52,514 nucleotides of DNA from a virus: positions 1 through 52,514 of IMG/VR virus record IMGVR_UViG_3300028592_000015; one strand, written 5' to 3'. Below the pieces are notes generated by a model. That model had not been told where the DNA came from and made no database searches. It saw only the letters and a program-made list of their open reading frames with translations. A program made the position numbers and the translations under genes. Positions 22,682 to 26,046 of the stretch are shown piece by piece. Within the stretch, counting starts at the first letter, position 1. The number at the start of each line of letters is the position of its first letter.

Positions 22682-22933
22682 TTATGCTGCTGCGGGCTCT
22701 ACCGAGGCCGGACGCGGTACATGCGAAGGCCACTCAAGCGTTTCCGGCCAATTCGCCGAAAACCAACCCATAGCCTTCTCGAAGTTCCGGGTGTTCAGGT
22801 CGCCGCCGTCGATGATGGCGGCAAGACGACCGCCCCCGTTGAACAGCTTCGTGCTGACAGTGGCCAACGCTGTGCCTGTTGCCTTGGCATATGCCTGGGC
22901 TACGACGGACAGTTGCTCGGTCAGTGGAAGCAT
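22682..22933 (-). CDS. Cro/CII-like early regulator
   Basis: The 83-residue protein starts MLPLTEQLSVVAQAY; LATVSTKLFNGGGRLAAI and FEKAMGWFSANWPE follow. I recall similar short regulators opposite S24 repressors in rhizobial prophages. It is the first gene of the leftward operon, directly downstream of promoter PL and its 26-bp operator, and divergent from the CI-like gene. A Cro-like or CII-like function is inferred from position and an HTH-like segment. Confidence 0.6.
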   Translation of the reverse strand: MLPLTEQLSVVAQAYAKATGTALATVSTKLFNGGGRLAAIIDGGDLNTRNFEKAMGWFSANWPETLEWPSHVPRPASVEPAAA

Positions 22934-22974
22934 TCTGGTATCACCGTAACTGCAAAGCAGGATCGTTACGACAC

Positions 22975-23003
22975 ACAATGCGGATTGTATTCCGCATTGT
23001 CAA
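22975..23003 (-). promoter_or_regulatory. Leftward early promoter with operator O1
   Basis: On the minus strand a perfect -35 box TTGACA (23003-22998), a 17-nt spacer and a -10 CATTGT (22980-22975) precede the Cro-like gene. A palindrome ACAATGCGGA-N6-TCCGCATTGT (22975..23000) overlies the spacer, the -10 box and the end of the -35 box. A dimeric repressor bound here would block polymerase. The same half-site pair recurs at 26221 and 26249. Confidence 0.85.
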
Positions 23004-23052: not shown

Positions 23053-23829
23053 ATGTCGGAATTTGATCCCCATACCCTTGCCGGCCGCATCGAGCGGCGC
23101 CTTGAAGTCGTTGGGCTTTCACCCTCAGCCGCGTCCGAAAAGGCGATGGGCGATGGCAAGCGCGATGCGATCCGAAAAATCTATGACAAGGCCAAAAAGA
23201 ACGAGCCGTTTAGCCCGCGCATGGACACGATACGCGCGCTGGCGAAGGTACTGCGCACGACCGCATCATGGCTGACCGACGAGGTCGGTCCCGAGGAACT
23301 GCCGGATGGCAATGGTCATCTGGAGGGCCCGGGCGTGCCCCATGACGGCCCCAAGCCGACATATGCCGGCAACGTGCAGGCGGGCATGTTCCGGGCCGTT
23401 GATGAGTATTTCAACCAAGACCCCGAGGACGTGCCCGATTACGTGCTCATGGTCCCGAAATACAACCGGGTCCGCCAATACGTCTGGCGGTCTCTTGGGG
23501 ATTCAATGGACGAGGCCGGCATCCTCGACGGCATGTGGGTGGTGGGCGCGGATGCTGCCGACTACATCGACACCTATGGCGATATCGTCACAGGGGATCT
23601 CGTCGTGGTCGAGCGCGTTCGCTACCAGGGCTCCGAGCGAGAATTGACCGTCAAGGAAGTGCACTTCTTCCGGGACCGGTATGAGCTGCGCCCCGTCAGC
23701 AGCAATAAGGATCACACCCCCATTGTCGTCCAGCATGACCACTCGGTGAACGGTGACGACGAAGAAGTAAAAATCATCGGCGTCGTGCTCACTGCTTACG
23801 CCAATCTCCGGAGAACGCCTGGACGATGA
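23053..23829 (+). CDS. CI-like repressor, S24/LexA-type self-cleaving
   Basis: The 258-residue protein has an N-terminal HTH (residues about 9-75) and a C-terminal S24 peptidase domain. The putative cleavage bond is Ala110-Gly111 (VQAGMF); Ser151 (GDSM) and Lys201 (TVKEV) would form the catalytic dyad. These features predict RecA-stimulated autocleavage and SOS induction. It would bind O1 and the sites at 26221 and 26249. Its stop overlaps the next start (ATGA), so three more genes are co-expressed in the lysogen. Confidence 0.9.
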   Translation: MSEFDPHTLAGRIERRLEVVGLSPSAASEKAMGDGKRDAIRKIYDKAKKNEPFSPRMDTIRALAKVLRTTASWLTDEVGPEELPDGNGHLEGPGVPHDGPKPTYAGNVQAGMFRAVDEYFNQDPEDVPDYVLMVPKYNRVRQYVWRSLGDSMDEAGILDGMWVVGADAADYIDTYGDIVTGDLVVVERVRYQGSERELTVKEVHFFRDRYELRPVSSNKDHTPIVVQHDHSVNGDDEEVKIIGVVLTAYANLRRTPGR

Positions 23830-24170
23830 AGCGTTTGATTTTCTTGACGCTATGCGCGCTTTCCGGACCGGCAATGGCTCTGGAGCCGAACGACGTGCAG
23901 AAATGCTGGAACATCATGCCGACGCAAATTGGCATCGGCGCAGAGGTTGAAATCGACATCGTTCTGGCCGCTGATGGCAGTGTCTCGAAGGCAGAGATCA
24001 CCAGGTATTCGCCGGACAACGATCTGGGCTACGACTTGGCGCGCGGAGCCTATCGGGCCGTGATCGCTTGCTCCCCTTATGTAGACTCTGAAGCCGGGCC
24101 CGTTTCCCTCCGTCTCGTGGTTGATGAGCAAGAGGCGCCGGCGAGCATTCCGCTTCCCGGCTCTCAATGA
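23826..24170 (+). CDS. Secreted TolA domain III-like protein
   Basis: The 114-residue protein has a signal peptide (MKRLIFLTLCALSGPAMA). The mature part has C27-W, then EVEIDIVLAADGSVSKAEI, S-P-D-N, ARGAYRAVIACSPY with C82. This matches the C-terminal domain of alphaproteobacterial TolA (including the two Cys). TolA links inner and outer membranes and is used as a receptor by filamentous phages and colicins. This copy lacks the membrane anchor and the long helix, so it would be a free periplasmic domain. It is co-translated with the repressor. Confidence 0.75.
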   Translation: MKRLIFLTLCALSGPAMALEPNDVQKCWNIMPTQIGIGAEVEIDIVLAADGSVSKAEITRYSPDNDLGYDLARGAYRAVIACSPYVDSEAGPVSLRLVVDEQEAPASIPLPGSQ

Positions 24171-24619
24171 CACCCGGCGACCGCCTTCGGCAGGCAAGAT
24201 TGCTGGCTGGCTTCAAGTCAGCCACGAAGGCTGCTGCTGCGGCTGGTATGTCCGAATCGTCTTATCGGGCGCACGAGAATGGGCAGAACGCATTCACCCC
24301 AGAGCAGGCCCAGCACTATGCCTCAGTATTCGGCTGCGATCCGGTATGGTTGCTAATCGGCCCGTATGCCGAGGTGGACGATGATGGGCCGGCGGAAACG
24401 ATCGCGGCCGTCACGCTGTCCAGTTCGGCCATTCTCGCCGCCTTGGTGCAGTCCTTGCACGACAAGGGTGTCCTGAGTGGGGAGGAGACGGTTGAGTTAT
24501 ACGAAACTGCCCTCCTGCTGCTGGAACAGCAACAAGCGATGGCCGATGCGACGCCCGGCCTTGGCCGGATAATGGATATGGCGCGAGAGCTGATCGAAAA
24601 ACACCTGAGGCCCGAATGA
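24167..24619 (+). CDS. Second XRE-type regulator in the immunity operon
   Basis: The 150-residue protein has an HTH (GDRLRQARLLAGFKSATKAAAAAGMSESSYRAHENG, residues about 4-38). The region after residue 65 is helical with a Ser/Ala-rich stretch, and it ends MDMARELIEKHLRPE, suggesting oligomerisation. It is coupled by ATGA overlaps to its neighbours. It might control the RelA/SpoT-domain gene opposite or fine-tune immunity. Confidence 0.75.
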   Translation: MTPGDRLRQARLLAGFKSATKAAAAAGMSESSYRAHENGQNAFTPEQAQHYASVFGCDPVWLLIGPYAEVDDDGPAETIAAVTLSSSAILAALVQSLHDKGVLSGEETVELYETALLLLEQQQAMADATPGLGRIMDMARELIEKHLRPE

Positions 24620-24870
24620 GCCAGCAACCACCCACTAAGCTCATCGTATATTTGGCGTTCGTGCGCAACGACGAAGGCGAGCTGCAGCCAGCCTTCGAGG
24701 CGCGCGAAGCTCAGTCCGAAGCCGCCGCGAAACAGCAGGCGCGCGTCCTGTGGTCATCCGGGAAGTATGTCGGCGCGATCGCTTGGTGGCGATCCGCAGA
24801 CCTAGTGAATGGTGAGTTTGGAGATCCGGTGGTGCTGTTCTCCGAGGGCGAAGTTCCCGAGATGGAGTGA
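24616..24870 (+). CDS. Small hypothetical protein, end of immunity operon
   Basis: The 84-residue protein has KLIVYLAFVRNDEGELQPAFEAREAQSEAAAKQQARVL and a short C terminus (SEGEVPEME). It begins within the stop of the XRE gene (ATGA). It ends 7 bp from the stop of the convergent RelA/SpoT-domain gene. If the latter is a toxin, this ORF and the XRE protein are the two nearest antitoxin candidates. Not a known family to me. Confidence 0.55.
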   Translation: MSQQPPTKLIVYLAFVRNDEGELQPAFEAREAQSEAAAKQQARVLWSSGKYVGAIAWWRSADLVNGEFGDPVVLFSEGEVPEME

Positions 24871-24876
24871 TCAGTT

Positions 24877-25956
24877 CTAGGTTTGAAGAAGATTCACGAA
24901 GTCCACAGGGTCATTGAAATAGTTCCTGTAGGCACTACGAAGCTGCTTCGGCTCGCCGGTCACATACACCGCATTGATACTCCGACCGCTAGCTTCCAAC
25001 TGGCTCGCTCGCGCGATTGCCTCCTCTGAGTTCCGAAACACTTCAACGTCCAGCGAATATCCGCCTGCATCGTTCGCCACGATGTTGAGAACGTTGTGCT
25101 TGCGCAACTTGTCGAACTCGTCGAACTCCCGCATTGCGCCGAGACGCTGCAGAATTCCAAGTTCGTCTTCCAATCGCGCGAACCGCGCCTCCAGATCGTC
25201 GGTCGTCACATCCGCATAAGCGCGGGTTATCCCCTCGTGCCGGCGCGCAATGATTTCGCTGGCCATTGCGAAGAAAACACCACGAGCATCATCCCCGTGG
25301 CCAAATTTGGTGCGCTGCCGATCCATGATGTCGGAGATTTCAAGAGCGGTCGCCCAAGCGTGCTGCGCACGAGTTCGGTATTGAACCTCGACCATAAGAC
25401 CGTGCCAAGGTTCGGAAGTTTTGTCCCCAGATCGATGTGGTCGAGGATGGTGCAGAAAGACGTCGTGAACGCCCCGATAGCCAGTAGCCTTGGGATGTTC
25501 GATGTAGTTGTACTTATCGAGATCTTCGTGCTTGAGCTTGTGGTTCACGTTGCTCAACGACCTGCTAGAGAGCAGCTCACTACGGAACGAGTTGAGATCG
25601 TTGATGTCCTCGAAGATAAGCCTGCAGCCTGCAAAGTCCTGCATGGTGGTCACGTCTCTAATGAGAGGAGTGCCATCAGGCTTCGTTCTCTGAAGCTTGT
25701 CTATAACCGTGTTGCGGCGTTTCAGCCGCTGGGCGAATTCTGCGCGGATAGGTGAATTGTCGATTCGGCGCCGAAACCAGACCTTGAAAGTGTTCAAGAC
25801 ATAGCTGTGAGCAGCCCTCCATTGATCGACCAGGTCGTAGTCTTCTTGGGTTGCTCGCCCCTCTGCTACAGCTCGGCCAGCATTCCGGACCTGTGTCTTT
25901 GAAGAGGGTGGTTCGCTGAAGGACAATGGAGTGTTCTCCGATATTTTCGGCAACAC
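24877..25956 (-). CDS. RelA/SpoT-domain (p)ppGpp synthetase-like protein, toxSAS/CapRel candidate
   Basis: The start is a GTG with GAGG 6 nt upstream, giving 359 residues. A further in-frame ATG at 26004 lacks a ribosome site. The synthetase core has RLKRRNTVIDKL (helix with Arg/Lys), VTTMQDFAGCRLIF (D-x-x-G-x-R, with D107 and R112), ATGYRGVH (G-loop, Tyr) and MVEVQYRTRAQHAWA (E-x-Q, R-T). All key residues appear intact. No hydrolase domain is seen. About 140 C-terminal residues may be a regulatory domain, as in CapRel. The gene is on the lysogeny side, opposite the CI operon. Confidence 0.8.
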   Translation of the reverse strand: MLPKISENTPLSFSEPPSSKTQVRNAGRAVAEGRATQEDYDLVDQWRAAHSYVLNTFKVWFRRRIDNSPIRAEFAQRLKRRNTVIDKLQRTKPDGTPLIRDVTTMQDFAGCRLIFEDINDLNSFRSELLSSRSLSNVNHKLKHEDLDKYNYIEHPKATGYRGVHDVFLHHPRPHRSGDKTSEPWHGLMVEVQYRTRAQHAWATALEISDIMDRQRTKFGHGDDARGVFFAMASEIIARRHEGITRAYADVTTDDLEARFARLEDELGILQRLGAMREFDEFDKLRKHNVLNIVANDAGGYSLDVEVFRNSEEAIARASQLEASGRSINAVYVTGEPKQLRSAYRNYFNDPVDFVNLLQT

Positions 25957-26046
25957 TTCTAACCTCGCTTGAGTGCACGCGCCAGCGGAGTCATTCCATC
26001 TCAATCTCGCGCGTATTGCCCTATTGATACATCCAGCGCCTGGATA

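Follow-up and report, generated by a model that had tools for sequence, protein, structure and literature searches.

Why would a temperate phage carry, directly behind its repressor gene, a secreted and free-standing domain III of TolA? Filamentous phages and group A colicins classically dock on domain III (TolA-III). Whose interest might a soluble copy serve? The window examined here is a whole IMG/VR record (IMGVR_UViG_3300028592_000015) of 52,514 nucleotides. It encodes a terminase, a major head protein, a tape measure, a J-like tail fiber and a primase, and it is a temperate tailed phage. Its host is likely a soil-type bacterium of the Devosia group, with Devosiaceae as the likely host family.

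The lysogeny operon opens with an S24-type CI repressor of 258 aa at 23053 to 23829 on the plus strand (Pfam Peptidase_S24 at 5.5e-10; PHROG transcriptional repressor at 5.6e-16). The gene of interest follows at 23826 to 24170 (+) and encodes 114 aa. A sequence-only reading of this DNA had described a signal peptide and a TolA-III-like domain with both cysteines here, joined to CI by an ATGA; the ORF lies exactly there as described, and the overlap is present at 23826 to 23829. Its stop overlaps the next gene by another ATGA at 24167, giving overlaps on both flanks. That third gene (24167 to 24619, +) encodes a 150-aa protein with a helix-turn-helix (HTH) and a phrog_37345 domain, assigned by family matches and with a 72% identical copy in prophage L056. 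The phrog_37345 domain is a very strongly conserved C-terminal domain of 75 to 80 residues that occurs in lysogeny operons either by itself or joined to an HTH. The operon ends, after a further ATGA overlap, with a conserved 84-aa protein (24616 to 24870, +) from the ORF list, with homologs in L002, L063 and L140. Outside the operon are a divergent early gene (22682 to 22978, −; phrog_7669 at 1.2e-25) and a convergent RelA/SpoT-domain protein (24877 to 26004, −; Pfam 6.2e-12; PADLOC PDC-S33 at 5.5e-85). PDC-S33 is a PADLOC anti-phage candidate, and at the matching place in L002 no counterpart was seen. No promoter for the CI/TolA-III operon was identified in the window, and we infer transcription of the TolA-III gene together with CI from the overlap only.

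The protein begins with the signal peptide MKRLIFLTLCALSGPAMA (23826 to 23879, +), which can be read directly from the sequence, with an AxA site and no lipobox. Then comes LEPNDVQKCW...CSPY..., a single compact domain. Cys27 (codon 23904 to 23906, +) belongs to the CW motif of alphaproteobacterial TolA-III and Cys82 (codon 24069 to 24071, +) to the RAVxxCxPY motif, and both are invariant in our alignment A3 and in A8, the alignment of host TolA-III. Stand-alone homologs likewise start with signal-like stretches. The features of full-length TolA, an N-terminal transmembrane helix with the SHLS motor box and a long stalk, are absent, and the protein has only a cleavable-type signal peptide. L002, the closest relative of the window phage, has a copy at 87% identity with identical junctions. 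Of the 38 substitutions between the two genes, 25 fall at third positions, with dN = 0.063, dS = 0.325 and dN/dS of about 0.19. By that identity, the third-position bias and the dN/dS ratio, the ORF is a gene under selection and not a chance ORF.

What the domain is takes more than a family search. As a single sequence it matches TonB_2 at 0.022 (15.3 versus 22 bits) and TonB_C at 0.052 (14.4 versus 24.6 bits), both below cut-off; in NCBIfam, TIGR01352 is sub-threshold at 0.03 and TIGR02794 does not match. The host Devosia TolA-III alone is also under the TIGR02794 full-length cut-off (33 versus 59.45), and the copy from prophage L183 passes Pfam TonB_C (28.6 versus 24.6 bits). Scans with the single sequence turned up no relative in viral contigs, genome contigs, phages or plasmids; the gene is too diverged for such scans. 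Our main search profile was made of two sequences, the window and L002 copies. It finds matches in 54 of 199 Hyphomicrobiales genomes, mostly in TolA-like frames of 300 to 490 residues, and in 95 of the 136 genomes in the family to which G156 belongs, with E down to about 1e-10 and nearly all in TolA-sized frames. This family contains Pelagibacterium and is hence taken as Devosiaceae. In the Pelagibacterium genome, the profile matches only the C-terminal end of one frame of 382 residues adjoining tolR, which is to say TolA. The TonB_C matches above cut-off in G156, G254, G242, G224 and G230 are other loci, absent from the profile matches. TonB as the closest relative is rejected, since the profile does not retrieve TonB proteins from the same genomes.

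A profile-profile comparison by hhalign against ten host TolA-III domains gives 98.4% with E = 5e-15. The window copy is 25 to 35% identical to host TolA-III, and Cys27 and Cys82 align with both invariant cysteines of host TolA-III. The TolA-III of P. aeruginosa has neither, so the cysteine pair that the sequence-only reading had pointed out is present, but as a lineage signature of alphaproteobacterial TolA and not as a universal TolA-III feature. The AlphaFold model has the order helix-strand-strand-helix-strand with a mean pLDDT of 59, and 72 to 80 in the strands and main helix. Foldseek against the PDB gives top matches to TonB C-terminal domains (CTDs) and TolA-III, with a probability up to 1.00 and a best E of only 2e-3, and the PDB neighbors include TolA-g3p and TolA-TolB complexes. 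The comparison with the TolA-III structure that had been suggested as a check thus finds a match, at modest confidence. Run against PDB sequences, the two-row profile had chance matches only, and the viral structure library had no match to the model. The TolA identity is decided by sequence, with the fold in support, and we regard the window protein as very probably a secreted free TolA-III.

The same gene behind an S24 repressor, proposed earlier as something to look for, is found in L002, L056 and L183. In prophage L056 (genome G224) an S24-like repressor (Pfam S24 at 0.023, PHROG repressor at 2e-7, no BLASTP similarity to the window CI) is followed by a secreted TolA-III of 135 to 136 aa and then by an HTH/phrog_37345 gene, with ATGA at both TolA-III junctions as in the window. 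The two proteins are 30 to 33% identical with RYxPDxDxG common to both, and at that level of about 30% the cysteines, the signal peptide and the ATGA junctions are conserved. In prophage L183 (G314) an S24 repressor (1.3e-14) overlaps a gene for a secreted 137-aa TolA-III, which shares 52% identity with the host's TolA-III versus 16 to 23% with the other phage copies, and is on these identities probably a separate capture. A third type of copy, 112 aa and secreted, is found in the late region/tail module of prophage L055 (9487 to 9825, −; G254), directly upstream of the tape-measure gene, and shares 36% identity with the TolA-III of that prophage's host. A tree of the copies did not place the phage members (short sequences, long branches, open forks), and claims of independent capture rest on the L183 pairwise identity and on the differing context. 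Of the other close relatives of the window repressor, the nearest five (L003 to L007) have no TolA-III behind them, and L009 has none either. The window gene is therefore accessory: it does not travel with this repressor, and a linkage between the two is rejected, L002 being the only one of the closest repressor relatives with the gene. It recurs behind S24 repressors in L002, L056 and L183 and is absent in these six.

The place between the repressor and the phrog_37345 gene is a slot. In related phages it usually holds some other secreted or membrane protein (L059, L061, L062, L173 and L170). The one in L170 (3562 to 4080, −), where the repressor was not found, is a bPH_2-domain membrane protein; the one in L173 (3410 to 3709, −), behind an S24 repressor, is a secreted protein of 99 aa that contains two cysteines and matches no family above cut-off. 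In L060 the occupant is soluble and 61 aa long, and the slot is empty in L161 and L172. By a crude hydrophobicity rule applied post hoc, to a set that includes three TolA-III loci (one of them, L183, without the phrog_37345 marker), envelope-directed proteins fill 8 of 9 occupied loci versus 20% of background ORFs, with a nominal P of 2e-5. Without the three TolA-III loci, the count is 5 of 6 (P about 0.002). The window TolA-III gene occupies a variable slot for envelope proteins.

Free TolA-III is also found on host chromosomes. An extra secreted stand-alone TolA-III lies between tolA and tolB in four Hyphomicrobiales genomes, of which three belong to the G156 family; all four copies are chromosomal (L040, 6487 to 6888, −; L052, 3411 to 3833, −; L053, 3802 to 4185, +; L054, 3131 to 3556, −). 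At least six Devosiaceae genomes have a secreted, more divergent TolA-III-like protein of about 131 to 143 aa between dnaA and dnaN (L185, L186, L187, L188, L189 and L190), with no Pfam match in the two tested. Free TolA-III is a recurrent design in Devosiaceae, and this recurrence is a caution against a purely anti-phage reading of the phage gene. Two other candidates came up in the survey: one in G105 is rejected as a free copy, being a real TolA truncated at a contig end, and a short ORF in G006 (L029/L039) lies on the chromosome, and no phage genes were seen around it.

Our preferred reading, advanced tentatively, is that the lysogen expresses a putative TolA-III decoy against Tol-dependent agents, giving superinfection exclusion. 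The sequence-only reading had proposed that a soluble copy may compete for a Tol-dependent entry factor or change the envelope of lysogens, and among the functions considered such a putative role is the best supported. Going by the operon structure, lysogens would make TolA-III along with the repressor; Sec would export it, oxidation would form a C27-C82 disulfide, and the unanchored domain would float in the periplasm. There it would offer the same beta-strand docking surface as the real TolA with no force transmission from TolQR. It would occupy the TolA-docking part of incoming agents, whether adsorption proteins of filamentous or other phages or bacteriocins, and exclusion would result from that occupation, with some competition for TolB as an unavoidable side effect. 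Strand addition is how TolA-III binds TolB, and the site involved also serves filamentous-phage g3p and colicin N; g3p and colicins compete with TolB for it (PMC7391070, PMC4339652). There are known exclusion proteins that act at the step of injection across the envelope (PMC10883804). In favor of the decoy we count the lysogeny-linked placement, with ATGA overlaps kept in L002 and L056, and the closeness of the anti-phage candidate PDC-S33 to the operon. Against it we count the identity of 25 to 35% to host TolA-III, which is low for a mimic, and the free paralogs in the host tol operon and between dnaA and dnaN, so that a physiological use unrelated to phages is conceivable. We know of no Tol-dependent phage or bacteriocin of Devosiaceae, and the target of the decoy is hypothetical. 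It is also possible, though we would not yet lean on it, that Devosiaceae temperate phages repeatedly capture host TolA-III as a soluble, anchor-free putative decoy for Tol-dependent phages and bacteriocins, in the lysogeny operon and at the side of the tape measure, which would make a new periplasmic exclusion class working by mimicry of a host coreceptor.

The alternative that survives best, which we think somewhat unlikely, is a dominant-negative tuning of Tol-Pal. Putative binding to the TolB N-terminus would lower Tol-Pal activity and alter outer membrane integrity, vesiculation or receptor exposure, and any phage resistance would be indirect. The engineered pTA3Y of Wan and Baneyx, going by the account of the construct in PMC6195910, resembles the window protein in fusing a signal peptide to free TolA-III in E. 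coli, and that periplasmic export is a deliberate outer-membrane leak, for which the same account cites Levengood-Freyermuth 1993 and Wan and Baneyx 1998. The tandem secreted TolA-III genes between tolA and tolB in hosts also fit. However, pTA3Y export, as described there, is man-made overexpression to leak proteins, unlike the window gene, and it is upon overexpression that the E. coli leak is seen; the affinity of TolA-III for TolB is weak, with a Kd of 40 to 200 uM (PMC7391070), and what a prophage gains from a costly envelope defect is not obvious. We favor the decoy over Tol-Pal tuning on account of where the phage genes lie (behind the repressor, next to a tape measure), the use of the slot for envelope proteins, and the convergence of the captures.

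Lysogenic conversion that aids the host is a fairly improbable reading, in which the gene adds to the free TolA-III family as a putative TolB/Pal chaperone or as protection versus bacteriocins of rivals. The secreted paralogs on Devosiaceae chromosomes, in two contexts, speak for it, but the phage placements, in an immunity operon and upstream of a tape measure, are typical of accessory genes serving the phage. Less probable again is a TonB-CTD-like or re-purposed beta-strand-binding module that keeps the fold without mimicking TolA, its putative ligand being a phage protein or a TonB-box protein. The best Foldseek matches are TonB CTDs, the family library gives TonB_C and TonB_2 only and below cut-off, and the far-diverged window copy is missing the W of the C-terminal YxxW motif; set against these are a profile that retrieves TolA and not the same-genome TonB, the presence of both host TolA cysteines and of its CxPY motif, and the hhalign score of 98.4% with host TolA-III. 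A neutral passenger or decaying captured host fragment would suit the patchy distribution and the absence behind most related repressors, but the selection signature, dN/dS of 0.19 and cysteines, signal peptide and ATGA junctions kept by the window and L056 copies, which are about 30% identical, makes this very improbable.

Set beside known systems, the window protein is like the TolA-III of Devosiaceae/Hyphomicrobiales hosts in its alpha-beta-beta-alpha-beta order (from the model), its CW and RAVxxCxPY motifs and both cysteines, but is shortened after CxPY; unlike host TolA it has no transmembrane anchor (domain I) and no stalk (domain II), and it has its own signal peptide and a phage operon. 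The tolA-tolB paralogs (L052, L053, L054 and L040) share the design of a signal peptide and one TolA-III in a short stand-alone ORF, but are chromosomal and in the tol operon, and the closest one compared is 33% identical. In their role, SieA of P22 and HK97 gp15 are like the decoy proposed, being envelope proteins that a prophage encodes and that block other phages (PMC10883804), and the L055 copy adjoining its tape measure upstream is a further likeness; they are inner-membrane proteins, whereas the window protein is a soluble mimic of a host domain with putative exclusion. Exclusion of other phages by prophage envelope proteins is known already; what would be new is a freed host TolA-III in that role, possibly with a new mechanism. 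The sequence-only reading knew of no described phage-encoded version, and we found no description of a natural one in the open-access literature; a 2024 review of exclusion does not mention TolA (PMC11436027).

If independent captures in one family, at places where prophages keep exclusion genes, hold true, then coreceptor mimicry would be a recurrent anti-superinfection strategy. The finding also draws attention to Tol-dependent phages or bacteriocins in alphaproteobacteria, of which few are known, and to the secreted TolA-III proteins that host chromosomes encode, a family so far unstudied. The decoy idea is directly testable by expression of the 114-aa protein. At the left end of the record, the window also encodes a secreted member of the Rap1a immunity family, 111 aa long (23 to 358, +; PF18602 at 3e-15; phrog_3870).
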